Of a stretch of 64,000 nt of DNA, positions 41,128-55,406 are shown piece by piece (the first letter of the stretch is position 1; each line of letters starts with the position of its first letter). The stretch is from a bacterium (GTDB lineage: Bacteria > Actinomycetota > Acidimicrobiia > Spongiisociales > ZC4RG35): positions 13,706-77,705 of the forward strand of contig JAHEJW010000007.1 in NCBI GenBank assembly GCA_024638655.1, in the 5' to 3' direction. The notes beneath the pieces were generated by a model. The model searched no databases. It had not been told where the DNA came from and was given only the letters and a program-made list of their open reading frames with translations. The translations under genes and the position numbers were made by a program.

Positions 41128-41916
41128 ATGGAACCCGATCTTCGAGGTGAGAGTGTGAGATGGTCGATTGTCGGATGGATAGCCGCCGCAATAGTCGTGG
41201 TAGTCGGAGGCGCATATGCATGGTTCTGGTTCGCCGGAGGCTCGGGTGAGCCGTCGACCGAACTGACGACCCCGACGATCGCTGGAACCGACACCACCCT
41301 CGGCACAACGGCGAGCACTCGATCCACAACCGAAACGACCGTGGGAACGACGACGGGTGCGTCGTCCACCGGTCCCGCCTCCTTTGTGCTCGATTCGACG
41401 CGAAGCCTGGCGAGTTTCGAACTAGACGAAGAGTTGCGGGGCTCCCCTCAGCGTGTCGTCGGAACGACCGACCAGGTTGCCGGCCAGGTGCGTCTCGACA
41501 TAACTGATCTGTCCACGGTCGAGTTCTCCGAGATAGTGATCAACGCCCGCACCTTTCAAACCGACTCGGGCCAGCGGGACCGAGCAATTCGAGGTCCGGT
41601 GATTTTGGACTCGGCAAGCGACGAGTTCGAGTTCATAACGTTTTCGGTCAAATCGGTGGACGGCTTACCCGACGAGGTGGTCCCCGGTGACACTCTCGAG
41701 CTCACCGTCACCGGCGATCTCACAGTAAAAGGCATTACCAACGAAGAGACGTTCGACGTGTCCGCCACGCTCGTCGACCAGGAGAACATCGAAGGTTCGG
41801 CGGGCGCCATCATTTCCAGGGATCGATACGGAATCGGGATACCCAACGTTCCCAGCGTGGCCAATGTGAGTGACGAGGTGGCTCTGATCTTGGAGTTCGT
41901 CCTAACCGCGAGTTGA
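41128..41916 (+). CDS. Membrane-anchored YceI-like domain protein
   Basis: The 262-residue protein has one N-terminal membrane helix (VGWIAAAIVVVVGGAYAWFW), a Thr/Ser-rich linker to about residue 85, and a YceI-like lipocalin domain (SLASFELDEELRG, VAGQVRLDITDLSTVEFSEI, and the final DRYGIGIPNVPSVANVSDE). YceI proteins bind isoprenoid-type lipids in the cell envelope. A GTG three bases upstream is an equal alternative start. The Thr-rich linker resembles that of the HD phosphodiesterase in this window. It overlaps the open frame of dnaG. Confidence 0.88.
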   Translation: MEPDLRGESVRWSIVGWIAAAIVVVVGGAYAWFWFAGGSGEPSTELTTPTIAGTDTTLGTTASTRSTTETTVGTTTGASSTGPASFVLDSTRSLASFELDEELRGSPQRVVGTTDQVAGQVRLDITDLSTVEFSEIVINARTFQTDSGQRDRAIRGPVILDSASDEFEFITFSVKSVDGLPDEVVPGDTLELTVTGDLTVKGITNEETFDVSATLVDQENIEGSAGAIISRDRYGIGIPNVPSVANVSDEVALILEFVLTAS

Positions 41917-41963
41917 GCAAGCCCGGCACGAGATTCGGCCCTCGACCTTATTATCGAGTCGAG

Positions 41964-43712
41964 ATGGCAGACCGCGGCGATATCGATCGAGTGCGAGAGG
42001 CCACCGATCTGGTCGACCTGTTCGCCGAAGTGACCAAGGTGCGACGATCCGGCCGCTCTTTCATGGCGGTCTGCCCGTTCCATCAGGAGAAGACTCCTTC
42101 GATGTCACTGGATCGAGCCAGAGGCCTTTACCACTGCTTCGGTTGTGGCGAGGGTGGCGACGTGTTCACCTTTCTCCAGAAGACTCAGGGGCTGGAGTTC
42201 ACTGAGGCGCTCGAAAGCCTCGCCCGTAGGGCCGGGATCACCATCACGAGAGATCCAGAGGCGGCTCGCAAGCGGGGCAGGAGGGACGCAGCCGTTGCTG
42301 CCCTCAGGAGGGCGATCGACGTCTACCACGACCGTCTGAAGCGGTCGTCTGAAGCGGGCCCTGCCCGCGCCTACCTGCGTGGGCGTGGATACGACATCGA
42401 TCTCATCGAAGAGTGGAAGCTTGGCTTCGCAGGAGTGGACTGGGACACAGCGGTGAAGGCATTACGAACGGCGGGTGTGGACGACCGTGCGATGCTCGAG
42501 GCAGGCCTAGCCAGACGTGGCCGACATGGTCTCTACGACGTCTTCAGGGGTCGTCTGATGTTCCCCATACACGACGTCAGGGGTGATGCCGTCGGCTTCG
42601 GAGGCAGACGGCTGGAAGAGATCGACGCCCAGGCGACCAACAATCCGGACGCCAAATACGTCAACTCCGCAGATTCGATCGTCTACCAGAAGGCGCGGCT
42701 GCTCTTCGGATTGGACCGCGCTCGCGGGCCAATCGCAGACGAAGGCCGGGCTGTCGTAGTAGAGGGGTACACCGATGTGATCGCCATGCATCGAGCGGGG
42801 GTCAAAACGGCGGTCGCCACCTGCGGGACGGCACTCGGGGATGGCCACTTCGATCTGTTGAGGCGCTTCACCGAGCAGGTGGTTCTGGCCTTCGACTCCG
42901 ATGAGGCCGGAACCAAGGCGGCCCTGCGCAGCGATGACCTTGAATCGCCGTTCCGACTCGATCTCGATCTCCGAGTTGCTGTCATGCCTGATGGGCTTGA
43001 TCCGGCCGACCTGGTCCAGGAGGGCCGGTCGGCCGAGTTGATAGAGGCGGTCGAGTCGGCACGACCTCTCCTCGAGCACCGTATCGAGCACGATGTCGAG
43101 CGTTTCGACGTATCGGGCCCGGAGGGGCGCGCTCGGGCGCTCCATGCCGCGGTCGCACAACTCAAGCGGGTCAATGACGATATCGCCCGCACCGAATATG
43201 CGCGGTTTGTGGCCCGACTGATCGGGGTCGACCTGGACACCGTCCGGCGGGCTCTCGGGACTCGGTTGGCTGGAGCCAGGGGAAATGGCGCTGCACCCGG
43301 CAGGCCGCTTGATCGGGCGGAGGCGGAGTTGCTTCGAGTGGTCTTGCACAACCCTCCTGATCGGGGCGATGTTCGGCCTGAGGACTTCACGGATGAGCGT
43401 CTGCGGCGCGCATACCTAGCCGTCGCGGACGAGCTTGCCGATCTCGACGCCGGGACCTCCGTCGACCTGACCTCACTTGAAGACGAGTCGACCGCAGGGC
43501 TCTTGCGGTCGCTCGCTATGGACGATCGACCGCTGCCCGACTGGACGGACCTGGAAAGAAGGCTGAAAGGCAAGCGTCTCGACGTCGAGATCGACGCACT
43601 TGAGTCGAGACTCGCCTCTCTCGACTCGGCAACGGACGATCACTCCGCAGCACTGAGAGAGCTCACGGAGCTCCAGAGGCAGAAGCGTGCTCTGACCCAG
43701 GAGCCGAGCTAG
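41964..43712 (+). CDS. dnaG: DNA primase
   Basis: The 582-residue protein has the DnaG zinc-binding domain (VCPFHQEKTPSM ... YHCFGCGEGGDVF), the TOPRIM core with VVVEGYTDVIAMHRAG and VVLAFDSDEAGTKAA, and a C-terminal DnaB-interacting region. It makes RNA primers at the replication fork. The frame is open to TTG 41913, overlapping the upstream stop, but ATG 41964 gives MADRGDIDRVREATDLVDL, the family N terminus. It precedes rpoD as in most Actinomycetota. Confidence 0.96.
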   Translation: MADRGDIDRVREATDLVDLFAEVTKVRRSGRSFMAVCPFHQEKTPSMSLDRARGLYHCFGCGEGGDVFTFLQKTQGLEFTEALESLARRAGITITRDPEAARKRGRRDAAVAALRRAIDVYHDRLKRSSEAGPARAYLRGRGYDIDLIEEWKLGFAGVDWDTAVKALRTAGVDDRAMLEAGLARRGRHGLYDVFRGRLMFPIHDVRGDAVGFGGRRLEEIDAQATNNPDAKYVNSADSIVYQKARLLFGLDRARGPIADEGRAVVVEGYTDVIAMHRAGVKTAVATCGTALGDGHFDLLRRFTEQVVLAFDSDEAGTKAALRSDDLESPFRLDLDLRVAVMPDGLDPADLVQEGRSAELIEAVESARPLLEHRIEHDVERFDVSGPEGRARALHAAVAQLKRVNDDIARTEYARFVARLIGVDLDTVRRALGTRLAGARGNGAAPGRPLDRAEAELLRVVLHNPPDRGDVRPEDFTDERLRRAYLAVADELADLDAGTSVDLTSLEDESTAGLLRSLAMDDRPLPDWTDLERRLKGKRLDVEIDALESRLASLDSATDDHSAALRELTELQRQKRALTQEPS

Positions 43713-43748
43713 ACAACAACCCCCTTACGAACCGATTCGGGTTGCGTC

Positions 43749-43774
43749 ACACTGCTGAAGAGGGACAACAGTGT
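43749..43774. other. Inverted repeat between dnaG and rpoD
   Basis: ACACTGCTG and CAACAGTGT form a nine-base stem with one G-T pair and an eight-base loop in the 119-base gap upstream of rpoD. No T-run follows, so it may be a weak terminator of dnaG or a regulatory site for rpoD. Confidence 0.4.
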
Positions 43775-43831
43775 TCGAGATCTTCAGAGACGGACTAGCT
43801 TGGATGGCGGGATGAAGGCCTTTGTAGCCTG

Positions 43832-44959
43832 ATGAGTACAGACCTGACACGGGTCACCAGCCTGCTGGTCAAACGAGCCAATCACCGCGGCTTCTTGACG
43901 ATGGCCGAAGTCCAGCAGGAGCTGGAGGACATCGAGGCTCCAGGCGAGGCGTTCGAGAAGGTCGCCGACGAGCTTCGTCTCAAGGGAATCAAGCTCGTCG
44001 AGGAGGGGCCGGCCGTTGGCGAGGAGGTCGTCGAGGTCAGCCAGATCTCGGTGTCCGACCCGGTCAGGCTTTACTTGAACGAAATCGGCCGTTACCCCTT
44101 GCTCACCGCCCAGCAAGAAGTAGAGCTTGCCATGCGCATGGAAGGCGGCAGGAGGGCTCTGGCACGACTAACCAGTGATGAGCTCGACGACGACGATCGA
44201 GCGTTCCTCAAGCACGAGGTCGAGATCGGGGAAGGAGCCCATCATCAGCTGGTCCAGTCCAACCTGAGACTGGTGGTCGCTCTGGCCAGGCGGTACGTCG
44301 GGCGAGGGATGTCTCTCCTCGACCTGATACAGGAGGGGAACGTGGGCTTGATGAGAGCCGTGGAGCGGTTCGACTACCGCCGTGGCTTCAAGTTCTCTAC
44401 CTATGCGACCTGGTGGATACGCCAAGCGATCTCTCGGGCCATGGCCGACCAGGGGCGGACCATACGGATGCCGATCCATGTGCTCGATGCGGTCAACAAA
44501 CTGACGAGGGCACAACGAGAGCTGACACAGACCCTGGGGCGGTCGCCCACACTCGAAGAGTTGGCCGAAGACCTCGACCTGGAAGTGACGCGGGTTGCCG
44601 AGCTGCGCCGAATCGCTCAGGACACCGTGTCTTTGGAGACGCCGGTCGGTGAGGACGAGGACGGGACTCTCGGAGACCTCGTCGAAGATCACGACTCCCT
44701 CGCTCCTGCAGACGTGGCCACTTTCACTTCCCTCCAGGACCAGCTCTCCGAGGCATTGGAGGGACTGAACGAGAGGGAGCGTCAGGTGCTCATCATGAGG
44801 TTCGGACTGGCCGATGGCCGAACCCGAACGCTTGAAGAGGTGGGTGCCCACTTCAACGTCACCAGGGAGAGGATCCGCCAATTGGAGACCAAGGCCCTCG
44901 CGAAGCTCCGCCATCCGGACAAGTCGGGCAAGCTGGAGGGTTTCCTGGAGAGCATTTAG
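43832..44959 (+). CDS. rpoD: Primary RNA polymerase sigma factor
   Basis: The 375-residue sigma-70 protein has region 1.2 ([20 protein letters not shown]), region 2 ([38 protein letters not shown]), region 3 and region 4 with [18 protein letters not shown] and [20 protein letters not shown]. It lacks a long region 1.1 acidic extension, and an N-terminal part of about 70 residues precedes region 1.2. It directs most housekeeping transcription. It lies immediately upstream of the tRNA-Asn gene. Confidence 0.96.
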
Positions 44960-45027: not shown

Positions 45028-45100
45028 TCCGCGGTAGCTCAATTGGCAGAGCAGTGGACTGTTAATCCATTGGTTGTAGGTTCGAGTCCTACCCGCGGAG
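45028..45100 (+). tRNA. tRNA-Asn (anticodon GTT)
   Basis: This 73-nucleotide cloverleaf has an acceptor stem TCCGCGG pairing with CCGCGGA, discriminator G, a D arm with AGCTCAATTGGCAGAGCA, an anticodon stem GTGGA/TCCAT around loop CTGTTAA with GTT at 45061-45063, and a T arm with GTAGGTTCGAGTCCTAC. CCA is not encoded. Its 3' half from position 45055 is repeated four times downstream, marking it as an integration site. Confidence 0.97.
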
Positions 45101-45101
45101 C
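45055..45101 (+). repeat. Repeat R0: 3' half of tRNA-Asn (reference copy)
   Basis: These 47 bases run from the anticodon stem to one base past the tRNA end. This is the kind of segment used as attB by tyrosine recombinases. Copies R1 to R4 lie downstream in the same orientation, without the tRNA 5' half. Confidence 0.9.
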
Positions 45102-45224
45102 TATCTCAGTCAGGAAGCCCTCCAGTACTACACAGCCGGATAAGGTCGAGGCACTTCCGATCAACGAACAAGCTCGAAAAGAGACCAAGGTCTCGTCCGA
45201 GGAGCCTTTCAAGGAGACCGCGAC

Positions 45225-45662
45225 ATGAGAATCACCGAGGCCGTCGTGATCGATCGGCCGTTGGAGGAGGTTTGGGCGGCCTTCGACAACCCGGAGACCT
45301 TGAAACGATGGCAACCAACCCTGGAGAGCTTCGAGCACATGTCGGGTGAGCCCGGCCAGCCAGGCGCCCAGTCGCGGCTGGTCTACGTCGAAGGGAAGCG
45401 CACAATCGAGATGACGGAAACCGTGCTCGAACGGGGTGAGGGTTACCTGTCCGGCGAGTACCTGGTGGGCGGTTCGGTGTCACCCACTGTCAACCGGGTC
45501 GACAATGTCTTCGAGAGACTGGACAGCTCTACCAGATGGCGCATGGTGTCCGAGTTTCGCTTCAGTGGCATTGAGCGATTCGTGATGCCTCTGATGAAGG
45601 CCATGTTTGCCAAGCGCATTCGCGACGATATGCGGCGGTTCAAAGAAGTGGTTGAGGCCTAA
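45225..45662 (+). CDS. SRPBCC (START/polyketide cyclase-like) protein
   Basis: The 145-residue protein has the SRPBCC lipid/ligand-binding fold: an opening ITEAVVIDRPLEEVWAAFDN, a central TIEMTETVLERGEGYLSGEY, and an end MKAMFAKRIRDDMRRFKEVV forming the long C-terminal helix. Members bind hydrophobic ligands in a cavity; no catalytic residue can be assigned. It is the first cargo gene after the tRNA-Asn and lies between repeat copies R0 and R1. Confidence 0.88.
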   Translation: MRITEAVVIDRPLEEVWAAFDNPETLKRWQPTLESFEHMSGEPGQPGAQSRLVYVEGKRTIEMTETVLERGEGYLSGEYLVGGSVSPTVNRVDNVFERLDSSTRWRMVSEFRFSGIERFVMPLMKAMFAKRIRDDMRRFKEVVEA

Positions 45663-45777
45663 GGCATAGCGACACGCCCTAGCCACCCGCAACGACACCG
45701 GGCGGGAATCTGTGCCGGTGGTTGGCGGCGTGCGACGATCTTGCCGCTCCGGGTTCTTCGGCTGGCTCAACCCTCTC

Positions 45778-46293
45778 TCAAAAGAACCAGGGGTAGTCGC
45801 CGCGAATCAAGACGAACACGATCAAGAAGATCCCAAAGACCAGACTCAACGCCCCGAGTGATCCTCCGGCTAACGCCCGGCCCCTCCCCAGCCCGGTTTC
45901 GTGAGCACGTTTGAGCCCTTCCCTCGCCAGAAGAACGGCCGCCGGGCCGATCAAGAAGGGAGCCCAGATGAAGTAGGCACCATACGAAACGACGGACAGG
46001 ATGCCTGCCCACATTCCGGCGGAGGCTGGTCGGTTCCTACCGTCTTCGGCTTTCTTCATACCCCCGCGGACCAATAGCCCGTAGACCAGACCCACCACGA
46101 TCAACCCAGAGACCGCGATGAACGCGAGGTTCTCCCAGAAGATGCTCCACCCCTCCCACTCATTAACCACCACTGCCACCACAGCGTGGACCACTTCGAC
46201 GGTCAGAAACACCCATGTTGCCCAGACAAGCCATGTTCGCCGTTGAACCCGCCGCTCCGCTGGGATGTTGGTCGGCCTGACTGCCGCATTCAT
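45778..46293 (-). CDS. Four-helix membrane protein, function unknown
   Basis: The 171-residue protein has a short basic N terminus (IPAERRVQRRTW), a pair of helices at about residues 20-75, and a second pair containing GILSVVSYGAYFIWAPFLIG and ALSLVFGIFLIVFVLI, ending YPWFF. The segment between pairs and the Gly/Ala pattern resemble DUF4190-like membrane proteins, but I cannot be firm. ATG 46293 has AAGGGAGA upstream and is preferred over an open frame to 46368. It is convergent with the SRPBCC gene within the same inter-repeat module. Confidence 0.7.
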   Translation of the reverse strand: MNAAVRPTNIPAERRVQRRTWLVWATWVFLTVEVVHAVVAVVVNEWEGWSIFWENLAFIAVSGLIVVGLVYGLLVRGGMKKAEDGRNRPASAGMWAGILSVVSYGAYFIWAPFLIGPAAVLLAREGLKRAHETGLGRGRALAGGSLGALSLVFGIFLIVFVLIRGDYPWFF

Positions 46294-46638
46294 ATTCCAT
46301 CTCCCTTCGGTGATGTCCGCGCAAGCCGCGGTGCTCTCGATGACGCGAGGCGTCCAATAACTCAACAATGCATCGCAGAGTCGAGAGGGCAGGTCGGCCT
46401 CAAAGATCGACGCCGGTGGTTGCCACCCCGGGGCTGCTCGTCGGTTGGGCCTTAGATGCAGCGCCGCGGACCGGGCCGCCTAAGTAGCCCGAATCATACA
46501 ACTCGCAGGGTTGCATCGCGCACCACCCTGAAAAGGTGCGAAGGCCTGACCGATAGGCTGCAGGGTCGCGGGTGATATCGAGGCCCTGAGATAGTTGGCT
46601 GCGGCTTTTGTGGCTTTGGTACAAGGGTTCTCGGGTTC
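46294..46638. other. Non-coding end of first module
   Basis: This 345-base stretch upstream of the membrane-protein gene probably holds its promoter. I see no gene in it. Short GC-rich inverted segments occur around 46410-46440, but none is long enough to name. It ends at repeat R1. Confidence 0.4.
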
Positions 46639-46683
46639 GGACTCTCAATCATTGGTTGTGGGTTCGAGTCCTACTCGCCGAGC
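46639..46683 (+). repeat. Repeat R1: diverged tRNA-Asn 3' end copy
   Basis: The copy matches R0 with about five substitutions and a one-base gap, including ATTGGTTGTGGGTTCGAGTC in the T-arm region and TACTCGCCGAGC at the end. It is the most diverged copy although it is nearest to the tRNA. The 5' half of a tRNA is absent. Confidence 0.75.
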
Positions 46684-47107
46684 CTTCTCACCTGGTAGTT
46701 GCCCGATGAACGGTCGCTTCGGCCGACTCATAGACGATGTCACCGTCGCACTACTCCTTGCCGCCAGATCTCTCTATTGACAGCTTGAGGCTCTTTCGGA
46801 TATCTTCTCGCATGACTCATGGTCGCGATGCTTTGCGCCACGTCCCAGGTTGGCGCGGGAGACCAGGACGTCGATAGGCGGCCGACCTCGAAGGAGTGTG
46901 CAAAGGCGACGGCACAAGGATGACTACGCCGGGTGGCCATCCGCCCGGATTTGGCCTGGTGCCCTGGAGGACAGACGTCGACTCACCTGGTGACCGGCGG
47001 ATGGCGCTTCCACAGACACCCAACTTTGCACCATTTGGACACCTACCTCTCCACCATTCAACGGGTTGAACGGCGGCCCAACCGGTGCCTCTGATTTAGG
47101 AGTAGTA
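46684..47107. other. Leader region of second module
   Basis: This 424-base stretch contains a near-consensus promoter (46777-46806) and no convincing gene. A 21-codon frame begins at ATG 46812 and stops soon after; I do not call it a gene. The real start of the secreted-protein gene is 300 bases after the promoter, so the transcript would have a long leader. Confidence 0.45.
46777..46806 (+). promoter_or_regulatory. Near-consensus sigma-70 promoter
   Basis: TTGACA at 46777-46782 is followed after 18 bases by TATCTT at 46801-46806. The first hexamer is a perfect -35 and the second matches four of six in the -10 box. It points toward the secreted-protein gene. It is the best-looking promoter seen in the window. 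Confidence 0.6.
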
Positions 47108-47692
47108 GTGAAGCAACGATTTCGCACCCTTATTGGATTCTTGGCAGTCACAGTTGTGTTGGGAGCGCTGCCAGCCCTGGCTGATCCACCTGAGACCTCG
47201 GAAGAACCGATCTTCGTGTTGTTCCCGGACTTCGAGCATGACATGGTCGTGTTCTGGAATATCACTCGAGCGGATTTCTGTGACTGGTCCGACATAGGTT
47301 TCGAGGGCGATCCGCCGGTCATCGAGCTGGTCGAGGCCAAAGGCAAGGAAACCGGCCAAGGGGCCTTTGTCGCATCGTGGCAGGCGTCCCGCGACCTCGA
47401 GTTGTGGAAACTCGACGATCCAGGGAACCCTCAGAACGCCTGTGCTGATACCGACGGTCAGGATGGCCCCTGGGCTAGCGGCTCTGCGAGGGTCACCGGC
47501 AATGACAACGATCTTGATGTGTCCGGAACCCGCCGCAACTCATTTGGTCACCGAGGACAAGGAAAGGTCACCGACGTAAGTGGCGATCGGTGGCACTACT
47601 CGTGGAACTTCACGGCTCAGTGCTCTGTTGACTGCTCCGTCGACTTCGTGGTGAGGACCCAGAACACCAATCTTCACAAGATCAAGAAGTAG
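47108..47692 (+). CDS. Secreted protein of unknown family
   Basis: The 194-residue protein starts at GTG with TAGGAG upstream and has a clear signal peptide (KQRFRTLIGFLAVTVVLGAL, ending PALADP). The mature part contains FVLFPDFEHDMVVFWNITRA, AFVASWQASRDLELWKLDDP and a C-terminal HYSWNFTAQCSVDCSVDFVV with a Cys pair; its alternating pattern suggests a beta-rich fold. I do not recognise the family. It is the only gene of the second module and is followed by a hairpin terminator. Confidence 0.78.
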   Translation: MKQRFRTLIGFLAVTVVLGALPALADPPETSEEPIFVLFPDFEHDMVVFWNITRADFCDWSDIGFEGDPPVIELVEAKGKETGQGAFVASWQASRDLELWKLDDPGNPQNACADTDGQDGPWASGSARVTGNDNDLDVSGTRRNSFGHRGQGKVTDVSGDRWHYSWNFTAQCSVDCSVDFVVRTQNTNLHKIKK

Positions 47693-47705
47693 CGGGACCT
47701 AGCTG

Positions 47706-47737
47706 GCTGCTCCCCGGTGATGAGTTCGGGGAGCAGC
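47706..47737 (+). terminator. Hairpin terminator after secreted-protein gene
   Basis: GCTGCTCCCCG pairs perfectly with CGGGGAGCAGC around a 10-base loop, starting 13 bases after the stop codon. It lacks a T-run but is a strong stem. Confidence 0.75.
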
Positions 47738-47739
47738 TG

Positions 47740-47801
47740 CCGGAGGCCTCGTGACCATGATTGCCTCCGGTAGAGTGCTGCTGAGGCCTCCGCTACAGCA
47801 G
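47740..47801 (+). repeat. Two further hairpins upstream of repeat R2
   Basis: CCGGAGGC (47740-47747) pairs with GCCTCCGG (47763-47770), and CTGCTG (47778-47783) pairs with CAGCAG (47796-47801). GAGGCCTC-type words occur in both. They lie 70-130 bases before R2 and may be termination or recombination-related structures. Confidence 0.5.
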
Positions 47802-47868
47802 ATGACTTTCGCTGTTCGGTAGGCCGTCACCTGGACTTATGACCTGTGAACACACCGGTGATTGCCGC

Positions 47869-47915
47869 TGGACTGTTAATCCATTGGTTGTAGGTTCGAG
47901 TCCTACCCGCGGAGC
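47869..47915 (+). repeat. Repeat R2: perfect tRNA-Asn 3' half
   Basis: All 47 bases are identical to 45055-45101, from the anticodon stem to one base past the tRNA end. The preceding sequence has no tRNA 5' half, so this is a recombination-site copy and not a tRNA gene. Confidence 0.95.
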
Positions 47916-48667
47916 CCCGGTCTTGGTCGACATCCGTTGGTGATTCGCTGAAACCGAGCTCCGAACATTTGTTCTCTGTGAGCCGATGTGTAGCAAGTGT
48001 GTAGTCGCGAGTCGGCCTGAGGGATTGCCGCGATAATTGCCAACCCAAGCCCACTCACCTCTTGGCGCATCCCTTCCCGCTTCGTGAATCTGCCTCTGCG
48101 TACAGCGAAGGAGCGGACTTGGACCCCGTAGGACAGATTGTTACAGCCCGAGTGAGGGAGCGAGGCACCCGGTGCTGCGCTCTCGCGGGTACGGAAATCC
48201 TCGATTCTGAGGATCCAAACCGGACGTTCGTACACGCGACAATGCCCCTTGATACGGTTTCAACTATGCATCCGATGTGGCTCTGTTCAGGTGCCCAAAG
48301 TTCCTGCACTTTTTCCGGAGAGGACCGAATACCCCATTACTAAGCCGTCTGCCAGCCGCCATATGCGCTATCGCGGCCTATCCGGTCAGCACCGAACGCG
48401 ACTCTCCGAGGTGCTGACGAGACAGTCCGCGATCAGAAAGACTGCGGTAGCGCAGAATGCCGGATATCGGGTGGGTCGTTCGGTCGATTTCGGGCTTGGT
48501 GGCCGCATTATGCGCAGTGAGTACTGCGCCGCAGACAACTGTGTAGAGGTGACCGGCCGGGCCTCCCTCGTTTGTGTCCTGGTTGGTCGTCGCCAGGAAC
48601 GTCCAGCGCAGGCCGCTGTTGGGCCAGGCTACGATCTGCTCCATCGTCGCTGCCGAGGAGGCATTCT
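47916..48667. other. Non-coding start of third module
   Basis: About 750 bases precede the flavoprotein gene. A minus-strand frame at 48378-48644 (88 codons) is open but has no recognisable features. The sequence may carry decayed genes or the flavoprotein promoter; nothing was identified with confidence. Confidence 0.4.
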
Positions 48668-49948
48668 CTGGATCATTTCGATGTTGTGGTCATCGGCGGT
48701 GGGCAGGCCGGTCTGGGCGTCGGCTATTACCTGCGAGCAGCTAGGAGCAAGTTCGTCATTTTCGAGCGCGGCCGGGTCGGTGAGACCTGGCGCGCCCAGC
48801 GTTGGGATTCGTTTTCGGTCAACACGCCCAACTGGGCGAATGCCCTGCCGGGCGACCCGTACGAAGGTGACAAACCCGACGGTTTCTATCACCGAGACGA
48901 GCTCGTCGAATACTTCGAGCAATACGCCGGTAAGTTCGACCTTCCGGTGACTGAGGGAGTAACTGTGAGAGCGGTCGATGCCGACGGCGACGTCTTTCGT
49001 GTCACCTATGAAGTTGCGGGTGCGGTCGAAACCGTTACGGCTGCGAACGTTGTGGTTGCATCCGGGATAATGCAGGCGCCCAAGATCCCGGCGATTCGGG
49101 AGCGGTTCCCTGAGTGGCTCCACCAGTTACATGCGTCTGAATATCGGTCTTCGGAGGATCTGCCGCCGGGAGCGGTCGTCGTTATCGGAGGGGGCCAGTC
49201 GGGCTGTCAGATTTCGATGGACCTGATTCATGCGGGCCGAGACGTCTACCTTTGCACCAGCAAGGTGGGACGTCTCCGTCGAAGGTATCGACAACGTGAC
49301 GTAGTGGAGTGGGGCGAAGACATGGGGTTCTGGGATGTTGCTGTCGAAGAGCTGTCGGATCCGGCGATCCAATTTGCCGCTCAGCCGCAAGTGTCTGGGG
49401 TGGGACGGTATGGGAGCACCCTCAGCCTCCAGTCCATGGCCCGTGACGGAGTGCATCTCATGGGACGCCTCAGCAATGTGGAAGATGGTGTGCTGAAAAC
49501 CGACGACTCGCTTGCAGAGCACGTCGCCTTCGCCGACGAGCGTTCAGCGGAGTTCACCAGAATGATCGAGGATTGGATCAGCTCCAACGGCATAAGCGCG
49601 GCGCCCGTCGAGGAAGATCCCAACGACGAGCCCGCCAGCGAAGAAGTCGCCGGGTTTGGCACCACCACCCTCGACCTCGAGAAAGCAGGTGTCGGATCAG
49701 TCATATGGTGCACCGGATTCACCGCCGACTTCGACTGGATCCACGCTCCCTTAACGGACGAAAATGGGCAACCCGTACATGAGAGGGGAGTCTCTCCCAT
49801 ACCCGGGATCTATTTCCTCGGCTTTCCGTGGCTGCACTCCCGCAAGTCTGGGATCATCCACGGCGTCGGCGAAGACGCCCGCTTCATCGCCGAAGCCATC
49901 GCTTCTAGGACCGCACCAACAGGAAGCAGTGTGGAACCCGCGACCTAA
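48668..49948 (+). CDS. FAD-dependent NAD(P)H oxidoreductase, flavin-monooxygenase-like
   Basis: The roughly 426-residue protein has an FAD Rossmann motif VVVIGGGQAGLGVGYYLR close to its N terminus, the FMO-type VGETWRAQRWDSFSVNTPNW, and a second nucleotide motif VVVIGGGQSGCQISMDLIHA at mid-protein. A late CTGFTADFDWI matches the C-terminal FAD-contacting segment. It probably oxygenates or oxidises a small substrate. The start is uncertain: GAGGAGG at 48655-48661 points to CTG 48668, while the next upstream start codon in frame is GTG 48572 and adds 32 residues unlike the family. The 5' end may have been altered. It belongs to the module between R2 and R3. Confidence 0.85.
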   Translation: MDHFDVVVIGGGQAGLGVGYYLRAARSKFVIFERGRVGETWRAQRWDSFSVNTPNWANALPGDPYEGDKPDGFYHRDELVEYFEQYAGKFDLPVTEGVTVRAVDADGDVFRVTYEVAGAVETVTAANVVVASGIMQAPKIPAIRERFPEWLHQLHASEYRSSEDLPPGAVVVIGGGQSGCQISMDLIHAGRDVYLCTSKVGRLRRRYRQRDVVEWGEDMGFWDVAVEELSDPAIQFAAQPQVSGVGRYGSTLSLQSMARDGVHLMGRLSNVEDGVLKTDDSLAEHVAFADERSAEFTRMIEDWISSNGISAAPVEEDPNDEPASEEVAGFGTTTLDLEKAGVGSVIWCTGFTADFDWIHAPLTDENGQPVHERGVSPIPGIYFLGFPWLHSRKSGIIHGVGEDARFIAEAIASRTAPTGSSVEPAT

Positions 49949-50069
49949 CGCAGATCAACCGGGCCCGGGCGATAACGAACATTTCTCAGGGTGCGCGTGA
50001 ACGTGCCGTTATGAGCGGCTCTGGAACACGGAAGTACCGTTGGCGTTTCTACGGTCGTGTTGCGGACGT
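49949..50069. other. Short spacer between convergent module genes
   Basis: This 121-base spacer separates the flavoprotein stop from the end of the minus-strand truncated gene. No clear terminator was seen. Confidence 0.4.
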
Positions 50070-50423
50070 CTAGGGAGTTGCCACGACACTTACCTCGCCT
50101 GCTCCGAAGACCACTGGTACGCCACCCGTCCACGGTGCCGTGACCTCCCATCGCCATTCGTAGTCGCCCGCCGAAACGTTCTCGAAGACTACGTACCGAT
50201 GGTTGTAGAGAAGCTTGCCAAACAGGGGACTCACGTTGTCCTTCATCTTCCCGACAGTCACCTCGACCTCGTCTAGCGGTCCGCCGAGTGGTCCCCAATA
50301 CACGTGATCCACGATCGCCTCCAGGTCTGCTATCCCATCGGTTCGAGAAATACCCTCGTCCTTGTAGAAGGAGAAGAAGAAGATCCCACCTAGGAATTGA
50401 TCATCAGTTGTGAAGACGTGAGG
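50070..50423 (-). pseudogene. Gene fragment cut at repeat R3
   Basis: A frame of about 118 codons runs from the edge of R3 to a stop at 50070 without a start at its head. It reads DDQFLGGIFFFSFYKDEG, then ADLEAIVDHVYWGPLGGPLD, then VVFENVSAGDYEWRWEVTAP and EVSVVATP, which looks like real protein with a beta-sandwich end. A GTG at 50312 with GGAGG upstream could still give an 80-residue product. The simplest reading is a gene whose 5' part was lost where R3 was formed. No family is recognised. Confidence 0.55.
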
Positions 50424-50450
50424 TGTAGGTTCGAGTCCTACCCGCGGAGC
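50424..50450 (+). repeat. Repeat R3: short tRNA-Asn 3' end copy
   Basis: These 27 bases match the T arm and 3' acceptor strand of the tRNA (TGTAGGTTCGAGTCCTACCC and the following GCGGAGC) exactly. The anticodon-arm part is missing. The boundary at the T stem suggests crossover or attP of a different length from R2. Confidence 0.85.
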
Positions 50451-50592
50451 CCAGATTCATCCGACATCGCCTTGCGACATCGCCGAGCTTCCGACTTGAA
50501 ACACGCGTCCATCTGTAACCATCAGAGCCGGCTCATGATCGAGGCGCCCTTGTTCGGGCCCAGCGCATATCGCCGGTGATGGAGCGGGTGCC

Positions 50593-51456
50593 CTAGTTGC
50601 TTGCGAGCAACTCGTCGAGCATGGTTGGGAAGTTCTGCCATAGCGACAGGTGGCCTTCGCCTGCGTAGAGGTGGGCTGCCGCTCTTGGAATGTTGTCAGC
50701 GAGCCACCTGCCGTGGGAGAAGGGATTGAAGAGGTCTTCTGATCCGTGCCAGATCATTGTTGGTATCGCGATCTCATCGAGTTCGAAACCCCACGGGCTG
50801 ACGAAGGCGAGGTCGTCGTCGAGCCAGCCGTCGACTCCGTTCCGTAGAGCTTCTTGAATCCCGGCTATGGCGTCTTCACCGAATTCGTCGGTGAGGGCTG
50901 AGCGGTCGACGTCGGGAAGCATCGATGAGAAGGCCTGCATGAGCTGGTCGACGGTCACATCCAGAAGCTGTTCTCGTTCTGCTTCTAGATAGAGGCGGAG
51001 GCTTTCCTCACCGTTGAGCGCAGCAGAGTATTCGGCAACGTTGTCTTCTCCCATGCCTGCCAGGAAGTCCAAGCCCTCTGCTTCATATGGTCCGTGGCTG
51101 GCAACGACCAACGCCGCCGAGGCGGCGTCGAGCCGGGCAGCACAAGCAAGCGAATGCGGTCCTCCACTCGACCCGCCTCCGACCACGCATGAATCCACGC
51201 GAAGGCCTGCCAGGACTTCGGCTGTGTCGGAGACAACGTCGACGACCTTCCGGCCTGGTTGACGGGTGGAATCCCCATAGCCGGGCCGTGACCATGCCAC
51301 AACACGCATCCCTCGGTCGTGGGCCGGCTTCAAGACCGACCTGTCGTTGACCGCGGAGCCCGGTGTGCCGTGGAAGAAGACCAGCACGGGCCCGTCCTCA
51401 GGTCCAGATGTGCGGACATCCAGACGCCTACCGTCGCTCAGTTTGAAGCTGTCCAC
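50593..51456 (-). CDS. Alpha/beta hydrolase
   Basis: The 287-residue protein has the alpha/beta-hydrolase fold with the oxyanion segment FFHGTPGSAVN, nucleophile elbow GGGSSGGP at about residue 94, the acid region IWHGSEDLFNP and the catalytic His in GEGHLSLW. A helical cap lies between. It is likely an esterase, lipase or epoxide/haloalkane-type hydrolase; the substrate is unknown. It is divergent from the MocA-type gene with 28 bases between starts, sharing a promoter region in the module between R3 and R4. Confidence 0.92.
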   Translation of the reverse strand: MDSFKLSDGRRLDVRTSGPEDGPVLVFFHGTPGSAVNDRSVLKPAHDRGMRVVAWSRPGYGDSTRQPGRKVVDVVSDTAEVLAGLRVDSCVVGGGSSGGPHSLACAARLDAASAALVVASHGPYEAEGLDFLAGMGEDNVAEYSAALNGEESLRLYLEAEREQLLDVTVDQLMQAFSSMLPDVDRSALTDEFGEDAIAGIQEALRNGVDGWLDDDLAFVSPWGFELDEIAIPTMIWHGSEDLFNPFSHGRWLADNIPRAAAHLYAGEGHLSLWQNFPTMLDELLASN

Positions 51457-51484
51457 AGGCCCGGGACGCTAGCTTCGCTGATCG

Positions 51485-52423
51485 ATGACATTACGAGTGG
51501 CGGTTGTCGGAACTGGGGTCATGGGTCGTCGGATGCTCGGCGAGATGGAGCGACACCCAGATGTCGAGCCCGTATGGGCGTGGGACAACAACCCGGCGGT
51601 TCGTGCAGCCACTGCATCCGAACACCCCGAGCTTGTCTTTGTTGAGGAGATTTTCAACCAGCCTGCCGACATGTTCTACATAGCGACGCCGCCCGCAACA
51701 CACATCCCACTAGCCCGCAACGCAACAGGCGCCGTCCTCTGCGAAAAGCCCCTGGCCATCGACGTGACCGAAGCGCGGAAGCTGGTAGCCGGGATCGACA
51801 TCCCTAATGCCGTGAACTTCCCCTTTGCAACGCAGCCCATCATCGACACCCTGGAGGAGGAGATCAGACAAGGACGCCACGGCCAGGCGCAGCGCCTCGA
51901 TATTCGGCTGTTCTTCAACACCTGGCCCCGCAAATGGCAGCAAGAGGCTGCGTCGTGGCTCGCCAAACCAGAGCAAGGCGGCTTCATCCGAGAAGTCTTC
52001 TCACATTTCGCCTACCTGACCGACCGGCTGGTCGGATCCCTCCAACTCTTGGAAGCATCGGTGCACCGCGGACCAGCAGGCACAGAATCGACTGTTCGCG
52101 CCCGGCTCCTAGCTGGAGATACCCCAGTGTTGCTCACCGGGGACGTCGGAGGTCGCGCACCGGACTACAACGAATGGACCCTTTACGGCAGTCAGGCTTC
52201 ATACCGTCTGCACGACTGGAACAAGCTCACGATCGGCACCGACGAGCGATGGGACGAGCATCCCCCAGACCCACCACCAACCGACGGCCTCCATCGACAG
52301 CTCGACGCGGTCATCCAGATGGTCAACGGCCAACCGCATCAGCTTCCCACCTTCAACGATGCACTACGCATCCAAGAAGTCGTGGAGGCAATCCTCGGCT
52401 ATCAAGCGCACGATCACCTTTAG
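51485..52423 (+). CDS. Gfo/Idh/MocA family oxidoreductase
   Basis: The 312-residue protein has an N-terminal Rossmann fold (VAVVGTGVMGRRMLGEME), the MFYIATPPATHIPLA strand, and the family signature CEKPLAIDVTEA with the catalytic Lys. The C-terminal half forms the substrate-binding sheet (LFFNTWPRKWQQEAASW). These enzymes oxidise or reduce sugars or cyclitols with NAD(P). It pairs divergently with the alpha/beta hydrolase. Confidence 0.92.
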   Translation: MTLRVAVVGTGVMGRRMLGEMERHPDVEPVWAWDNNPAVRAATASEHPELVFVEEIFNQPADMFYIATPPATHIPLARNATGAVLCEKPLAIDVTEARKLVAGIDIPNAVNFPFATQPIIDTLEEEIRQGRHGQAQRLDIRLFFNTWPRKWQQEAASWLAKPEQGGFIREVFSHFAYLTDRLVGSLQLLEASVHRGPAGTESTVRARLLAGDTPVLLTGDVGGRAPDYNEWTLYGSQASYRLHDWNKLTIGTDERWDEHPPDPPPTDGLHRQLDAVIQMVNGQPHQLPTFNDALRIQEVVEAILGYQAHDHL

Positions 52424-52621
52424 TCGATCGACAAGAAGCCCGACACTCCAAACCGCACGTAACGGCACATGTCCAGCTGCAATCCCGTGGGATGGACCCG
52501 TGGCCAAGTGTGTAGCCGTACCAGGCCCCGCTGCACGACACGGGACGGCACGGGGGCTCAGCCTCCGCGGACAGAAACACACGTCACAGCAACGCATAGG
52601 ACTGTACGGATGTCCGCTACA
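52424..52621. other. Non-coding end of fourth module
   Basis: This 198-base stretch between the MocA-type gene and R4 contains no gene. Several GC-rich inverted words occur (for example around the CCGCGGA at 52568), but none was long enough to call. Confidence 0.4.
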
Positions 52622-52667
52622 GGACTGTTGATCCATTGGTTGTAGGTTCGAGTCCTACCCGCGGAGC
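52622..52667 (+). repeat. Repeat R4: near-perfect tRNA-Asn 3' half
   Basis: The 46 bases match the tRNA copy with one substitution (GTTGATCC for GTTAATCC in the anticodon loop side). No tRNA 5' half precedes it. It is the last copy found in the window. Confidence 0.93.
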
Positions 52668-54775: not shown

Positions 54776-55406
54776 GTCTGGGCCTCTGGACTGGGCGGCG
54801 TATCACCGATTGTCATCGGAAGGCGAGATTAGGCCTTCGGCATTGCCGCGTGAAGGACTCCCGCCGCACGATACGGCGTCGCTTCGTAAAGGGGAACCCC
54901 CGGGTGCCAATGCCTGGATGGTATTGAGCGCCGCAAGTTCAATCGTCACTAGGAGTCCTCTGATGTGAGCTCAGCGGCGAGAGCGGCCGCGCTCCATGCA
55001 CCACTCGGAGAAGACTCGAAGATCAGACTCGCACGCTCTGAGTATCGCCTGCGATCGAGACGCCTGAGATCCGTCGCCTTTGCGTGAAGATTCTCTATAC
55101 CCGCGCTCTGTAACTCGGGCCGGGGGGAGGGGGGAGGACAAATCGATCCTCGAATCTCGCGGCGCCGCAATGCCTCTTCTCATGCCCCCGAGGTTCGAGC
55201 TCCACCCTCAGAGCCAGGCCAGCTCACTCGCACACGTGGAGAGGTCGTTGACCAACGCTGTCGCAGTACATATATTCACGCGCATCGGCTCGGGAGACGG
55301 TGGGGGACAAGCAAACCCCGGCGTTGTCATCGCCTTCCCGACCTGCTGAAGGTGTGGTTCGTCGACCGGTGGCCGCAGCCCCGGTCTATGTGGATGGTGG
55401 GCGATT
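54776..55406. other. Long non-coding gap before the cyclase gene
   Basis: About 630 bases contain no intact gene. The only suggestive content is a possible integrase remnant on the minus strand near 54950-55090, described separately, and a G-rich run around 55121-55137. The rest is probably decayed accessory DNA and the cyclase promoter. Confidence 0.45.
54950..55090 (-). pseudogene. Possible decayed tyrosine-recombinase N-terminal fragment
   Basis: One minus-strand frame reads ILRACESDLRVFSEWCMERG, close to the N-terminal SAM-like core-binding motif of tyrosine recombinases (a T-x-x-AY-x-x-DLR-x-F-x-x-WC pattern). The frame stops soon after, and a neighbouring frame reads ALAAELTSEDS before a stop. 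No catalytic R-H-R-Y domain remains. The match is short, about 20 residues. Confidence 0.35.

Follow-up and report, generated by a model that had tools for sequence, protein, structure and literature searches.

A tRNA-Asn hotspot in a "Ca. Spongiisociales" genome, probably filled stepwise by small elements lacking their own integrase

The stretch analysed here (the window) comprises 64,000 nucleotides of contig JAHEJW010000007.1, assembly GCA_024638655.1, from a member of the order "Ca. Spongiisociales" (Acidimicrobiia). Its DnaG has relatives in uncultured Acidimicrobiia. Downstream of the tRNA-Asn gene lies an array of four intervals, or modules, each closed by a copy of the 3' half of that gene and none encoding a recombinase. 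The array is probably a hotspot at the 3' end of this single tRNA gene, which would have been filled stepwise by non-autonomous elements using an integrase provided in trans. This reading builds on the repeats themselves, the variability of the same site in related genomes, the exact transfer of one integrase-less module between two species, and the attachment arms common to modules with unrelated cargo.

The tRNA-Asn(GTT) gene (45028-45101, + strand), predicted with ARAGORN, is the only tRNA gene in the window and would represent the attB/attL side of the array. The 23-nt 3' core, GGTTCGAGTCCTACCCGCGGAGC, occurs at 45079, 46661 (with 2 mismatches), 47893, 50428 and 52645, in all cases on the + strand, and had no match in 100 dinucleotide shuffles of the window; the first-pass annotation, which described the 3' half of tRNA-Asn at the gene and at four downstream sites in one orientation, was thus correct on this point. 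The core-to-core spacings are 1582, 1232, 2535 and 2217 bp. The contig that holds the window measures 107 kb and belongs to an assembly of 2.87 Mb (75 contigs, 93% complete), the rest of which contains no further core copy at up to 2 mismatches; one match with 3 mismatches is present on a different contig, and the core matches of the genome include only one full tRNA-Asn, that of the window.

Copy 3 (47869-47915, +) and copy 5 (52621-52667, +), the right end of the array, follow tRNA-Asn through a 47-nt stretch that starts in the anticodon stem and reaches the 3' end, with in-register identity of 100% and 96%, respectively. Copy 2 (46637-46683, +) is a decayed 47-nt half with 74% identity that carries substitutions and a 1-nt deletion. 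Copy 4 (50424-50450, +; 77% identity in the 47-nt register, 50404-50450) is tRNA-like in no more than its final ~27 nt, that is, the T arm and the acceptor, and appears to represent a different type of crossover, a T-arm-only joint. A minus-strand frame of about 115 residues enters copy 4 and loses its N-terminus there, which suggests that this copy is a true recombination joint. Given that copy 4 is partial and copy 2 has accumulated substitutions and a deletion, the copies are of two kinds and differ in age.

The modules occupy 45102-46683 (module 1, 1582 bp), 46684-47915 (module 2, 1232 bp), 47916-50450 (module 3, 2535 bp) and 50451-52667 (module 4, 2217 bp). Module 1 encodes an SRPBCC/Polyketide_cyc2 protein (PF10604; 45225-45662, +) and a small membrane protein (45778-46368, -); module 2, a secreted protein with no family assigned (47066-47692, +); module 3, an MSMEG_0569-like flavoprotein (48686-49948, +) followed by the gene fragment cut at copy 4 (50070-50424, -); and module 4, an alpha/beta hydrolase (50593-51456, -) and an oxidoreductase of the GFO/IDH/MocA family (51485-52423, +). 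This Pfam-type annotation agrees with the gene content originally proposed. None of the four modules encodes a recombinase detectable with Pfam or with a hidden Markov model (HMM) of the integrases collected in this work, as the first-pass annotation had stated, and no integrase remnant was seen in them. Elsewhere in the genome, only two proteins contain the PF00589 domain, with best scores for XerD and XerC. One is encoded near a ScpA-like gene and the other between DprA-like and sigma factor genes; both fall below the integron-integrase cut-offs, with Xer recombinases as their top class. No serine recombinase or resolvase (PF00239) was detected in the genome.

We compared the locus across 138 genomes of the order. 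The left side, consisting of dnaG and rpoD (together 41913-44959, + in the window) ahead of tRNA-Asn, is conserved and syntenic in the relatives, whereas the DNA past the tRNA varies. A chorismate-mutase-like gene and leuD, which lie 20.9 kb from the tRNA in the genome of the window, are found at 2.3 kb and 4.8 kb in genomes G008 and G018, and in G011 this flank begins 0.6 kb past a distal core copy. Tandem tRNA-Asn core copies are present in several families of the order and, in all tRNA-Asn contexts compared, lie strictly on the downstream side of the tRNA and in its orientation; no repeats were detected upstream or on the opposite strand. Fourteen modules of 0.7-7.5 kb, from nine genomes, are bounded by two cores on one contig, and 13 of these encode no integrase detectable by HMM, the sole carrier being a module of G119. 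In G018, a cargo-free 47-bp core unit directly follows tRNA-Asn (L036:11177-11246).

Variation is apparent within single assemblies as well. Contigs C54 and C102 of G019 share one tRNA flank (98.5% identity) and differ in the downstream DNA, and in each of G137 and G110 one contig joins the tRNA to a sequence X, and another joins an element end and a core to the same X. By sequence comparison, these contig pairs look like occupied and empty, or differently occupied, sites within populations. Many contigs of the metagenome-assembled genomes end at tRNA-Asn or within a few hundred bases of it (L042:14365; L040; L035; L081:1-90), as would be expected if the populations were mixed for downstream content. 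In G095, where the genome's own tRNA-Asn represents a different allele, there is a second tRNA-Asn-like core (L094:4025-4098) with the allele of the family to which the window belongs; the DNA downstream of that core resembles G024, and may be foreign DNA or a binning error.

The movement of a single integrase-less module is best illustrated by module B of G019 and G020, which encodes a sigma-70-like protein and a 700-aa protein, and no integrase. Counted from tRNA-Asn, it takes the first position in G019 and the second position in G020. The two versions are 96.8% identical over 3117 bp and the match stops at the cores on both sides; identity is only 76.6% in the dnaG-rpoD regions of the two genomes (contig C54 in G019) and 75% from rpoD to the tRNA. 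To judge from these alignments, module B has passed between species as an exact core-to-core unit. No integrase-bearing neighbour is present in the G019 and G020 contigs, or in the window. The checks proposed along with the original annotation came out in its favour: relatives have or lack the modules with boundaries that run exactly from core to core, one integrase-less module has crossed between species, and the tyrosine recombinases of the genome are all XerC/XerD-like.

Modules A and B of G020 and G019, although unlike in cargo, have a common end arm of ~105 bp before the distal core (z = 38-50). The end of module 4 contains a putative P arm (52495-52619, +) that is homologous over 125 bp to these end arms of integrase-less modules in another genus (z = 8.3, 7.2 and 4.6; 0 of 1000 shuffles in each case). 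Within it, the motif TGTGTAG (52509-52515, +) is as far from the core as it is in the G020 arms. The motif GTGTAGCC (also written TGTGTAGCC) likewise keeps its offset between module 4 and the two G020 arms, and recurs in module B within the opposite arm. The sequences at copies 2, 3 and 4 gave no match to the G020/G019 end arms. The start of module 3 contains two TGTGTAG sites 11 bp apart (47987-48004, +), 71 and 82 nt past the core, that could be part of a P' arm. In the 2.67 Mb of loci compared, the tandem arrangement, a pattern chosen after it had been seen in module 3, is present at two distinct places, one being the start of module 3 and the other lying in the arm of G020 module B. Because TGTGTAG itself was read off the arms of modules A, B and 4, its occurrence in module 3 is a separate match. 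The window sequences look like attachment arms for an integrase that is absent from the array.

With matching arms located after copy 3 and before copy 5, we propose the interval between these copies (47916-52667) as one element. Modules 3 and 4 may accordingly be parts of a single 4.75-kb element that was later interrupted at copy 4, a gene-truncating joint. The proposed division into four modules is modified in that the intervals do not represent four equal cassettes.

Direct repeats within arms were significant in the G020_3, G019_2 and phage arms (see below), and were not significant in the window arms at k = 20. A BLAST search with the G019/G020 arm across the order gave convincing matches only in G019 and G020. 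An 18-nt piece of this arm was matched in IMG/VR, and was set aside because the matched sequence carries no att core. A second conserved element end, marked by GTTTCATTGAAAACTGGTG, was observed in at least eight genomes (L081:7515-7635 and 1155-1275; L260:7587-7707; L261:5-125; L263:60-180; L264:8332-8406; L093; L266), mostly beside tRNA-Asn-like cores and, in two genomes, beside tRNA-Arg(TCT)-like cores. This element family seems to have switched target while retaining its arm. No integrase was seen near these ends, and the second arm family had no match in IMG/VR.

Elements that do encode an integrase use the same tRNA-Asn in G133, G119, G050, G111, G092 and G022, several of them with a helix-turn-helix (HTH)/Xis gene beside the integrase. 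Those of G050 and of G022, a member of the same family as the genome of the window, also encode TrwC relaxases (L151:2298-5042; L158:2-235), and such elements therefore look integrative and mobilizable, or similar to the integrative and conjugative elements of actinomycetes (AICEs). In the tRNA-side arms of G022 and G092, AGGACGCG repeats spaced by 11 bp lie 60-82 nt past the core, a geometry that the tandem TGTGTAG of module 3 resembles. The AGGACGCG repeats are also found in the far arm of integrase-less elements in G084 and G095. The first 157 bp of the G095 element (L082:6519-6676) are homologous to G092 sequence comprising the arm and the 3' end of the integrase gene; an IS3-like fragment comes next. 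This remnant of a deleted integrase indicates that some integrase-less elements descend from integrase-bearing ones. Contig C1 of G133 was considered as an integrase-less module sharing an arm with the integrase-bearing G119 element, and was rejected, since a single integrase-bearing element probably contains the ends of both C1 and C25.

Two phage contigs of IMG/VR, from one metagenome, contain an exact 46-bp tRNA-Asn core in attP (L268:4539-4584 and L269:2558-2603) beside a tyrosine integrase gene (L268:5510-6628 and L269:1049-2170), together with genes for excisionase, head maturation protease, exonuclease and endolysin. The two integrases are 90% identical; the P arms of the two contigs are similar and the P' arms unrelated.

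Proteins with 76-83% identity to the module 3 flavoprotein are encoded in other families of the order, whereas RpoD of the two flavoprotein-bearing genomes tested, G042 and G135, is only 59-62% identical to that of the window, which argues that the flavoprotein gene moves. Its homologues are found in several different gene contexts, and the G042 copy adjoins a tyrosine-recombinase-like gene (L286:3313-3951). For the gene truncated at copy 4, no homologue was found in the order that would reveal the intact form. The G+C content of the modules (58.5-61.0%) is not distinct from that of the host (61.4 +/- 1.2%). Beyond the array, a possible sixth core (55192-55214, +), very degraded (5 mismatches in 23) and uncertain, lies in an intergenic region past a methyltransferase/kinase gene.

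Together, these observations can be accommodated in the following model. Each element would keep a core identical to the 3' half of tRNA-Asn and, where still visible, arms with short repeats, with no integrase gene of its own; integration would restore tRNA-Asn and leave a copy of the 3' half at the far end. A tyrosine integrase from another element in the same cell would recombine the integrase-less elements. Candidate helpers are the temperate phages with the exact core in attP, or the integrative mobilizable elements with Int, Xis and TrwC found at tRNA-Asn in relatives. The intact unit in the window would most likely be that between copies 3 and 5, with arms on both sides and the copy-4 joint inside, and modules 1 and 2 would be older or of another arm type. 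Insertion of tyrosine-recombinase type at tRNA-Asn by tiny recombinase-free elements, and their serial accumulation, had both been suggested from the window sequence alone and gained support here; movement in trans, also suggested then, is the best reading of the data.

Several points weigh against this model. The genus of the window is represented by a single genome, so that the presence or absence of modules was compared in relatives instead. Modules 1 and 2 have no recognisable arms, and two of the copies (2 and 4) are decayed or atypical. Arms of the TGTGTAG type were not found on any integrase-bearing element. The arms of the L268 and L269 phages, considered as a source of the module arms, have no homology to them; hence, these phages demonstrate that an integrase for the site exists, not that it serves the modules. 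With the genome 93% complete, an integrase could hide in the missing part. We infer the action of an integrase in trans, excision through a circular intermediate and a vehicle between cells from the patterns described above.

The chief rival is movement in cis by accretion, whereby modules that lost their integrase through deletion would travel only with a tandem integrase-bearing neighbour. The tandem arrangement and the G095 element, readable as an integrase-deleted derivative, are compatible with such a process, and there is a precedent in cis-mobilizable elements (CIMEs) and the integrase-less ssrA islands of Dehalococcoides (PMC3146451). However, module B moved alone, core to core, with no integrase-bearing neighbour in the assembled G019 and G020 arrays, and no remnant of an integrase was seen in the modules of the window, so that we consider accretion unlikely. 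Rather less likely still is that the modules are fossils, larger tRNA-Asn elements such as prophages or integrative mobilizable elements that were stripped of their genes and immobilized, their boundaries being kept by chance. The decay of copy 2, the loss of the 5' half of copy 4 together with its truncation of a gene, and the host-like G+C content would fit this scenario; copies 3 and 5 and the arms are well kept, though, and modules in that same state, with arms of this family, move from one species to another.

Spread of the modules by uptake of DNA and homologous recombination, through the tRNA copies and the flanks and with an integrase no longer involved, would make use of the repeats as short homology and would be in line with the lack of a resident integrase. 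The similarity of module B nevertheless ends at the cores although the flanks are 75-77% identical, and arm motifs at fixed distances are conserved across cargos, for which RecA has no need; we regard this explanation as highly improbable. Integrase-less elements acted upon in trans thus provide the preferred explanation of the array.

Aquatic bacteria are known to have cassette-like islands at tRNA genes, for which enzyme and vehicle have often been left open. In the portions of the three studies drawn on here, additive flexible genomic islands are described as strain-variable cassettes at a tRNA gene, separated by direct repeats of the tRNA 3' end, in Alteromonas (PMC4119200), in 'Ca. Actinomarinales', another order of the same class (PMC7771536), and at tRNA-Lys, with 20-bp repeats, in Methylophilaceae (PMC10872708). 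The array shares with these islands the fixed tRNA-side site with content that varies among relatives, and the direct repeats of the tRNA 3' end that bound the cassettes. These portions give neither the anatomy of att arms nor the recombinase of the cassettes, whereas here arms are common to integrase-less modules of unlike cargo, and integrase-bearing elements were identified at the same tRNA. The Dehalococcoides ssrA islands are also arranged in tandem after one RNA gene, with 20-bp direct repeats, and 15 of them lack an integration module and have been read as possible CIMEs (PMC3146451). They differ from the array in the use of a serine recombinase (DsiB) and tmRNA, as against a tRNA-Asn site of tyrosine-integrase type and mostly much smaller modules. 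As in CIMEs, tandem elements bounded by attL and attR are found here without integrase or transfer genes, but single integrase-less modules appear mobile with no adjacent integrase-bearing element.

The likeness to integrons noted in the first-pass annotation holds for behaviour and fails for the site, given that no attC core and no IntI were found. Clusters of attC sites lacking integron integrases (CALINs) are cassette arrays that rely on an integrase in trans (PMC11389934); in place of attC, the modules here have a tRNA 3' half and arms resembling those of tyrosine integrases, and the GTTRRRY core of integron and CALIN attC sites is absent from the 47-nt repeat. The integrase, replication and packaging-interference genes of phage satellites (phage-inducible chromosomal islands, or PICIs; phage-inducible chromosomal minimalist islands, or PICMIs; and others) were not found, the cargo here being metabolic or of no known function. 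Tycheposons are likewise tRNA-associated integrative elements with cargo; in the part of their description drawn on here, they span 4-200 kb and the examples from Methylophilaceae encode a tyrosine recombinase, in contrast to modules of 1-3 kb that have none. Arrays of this general kind, such as the additive flexible genomic islands and the ssrA islands, have thus already been described; the present analysis contributes the arm anatomy that ties integrase-less modules together across cargo and species, along with the integrase-bearing users of the same tRNA.

The arms of the integrase-less modules are recognisable, comparable across species, and matched in geometry to those of integrase-bearing elements at the same tRNA, so that a vague 'cassette' becomes a testable system of substrate and helper. 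More tentatively, and with less confidence than for the array itself, a tRNA-based cassette system might operate across the order, in which integrase-less families defined by their arms would use a tRNA platform and borrowed integrases, and genes would be stacked, swapped and passed between species as in integrons; one arm family does adjoin both tRNA-Asn and tRNA-Arg cores. As seen in related species, such packages pass from one species to another without carrying the inserting enzyme, which they probably take from phages or other mobile elements. An island finder that relies on the presence of an integrase would overlook them, and the findings suggest that packages of one or two genes can spread with no recombinase of their own.

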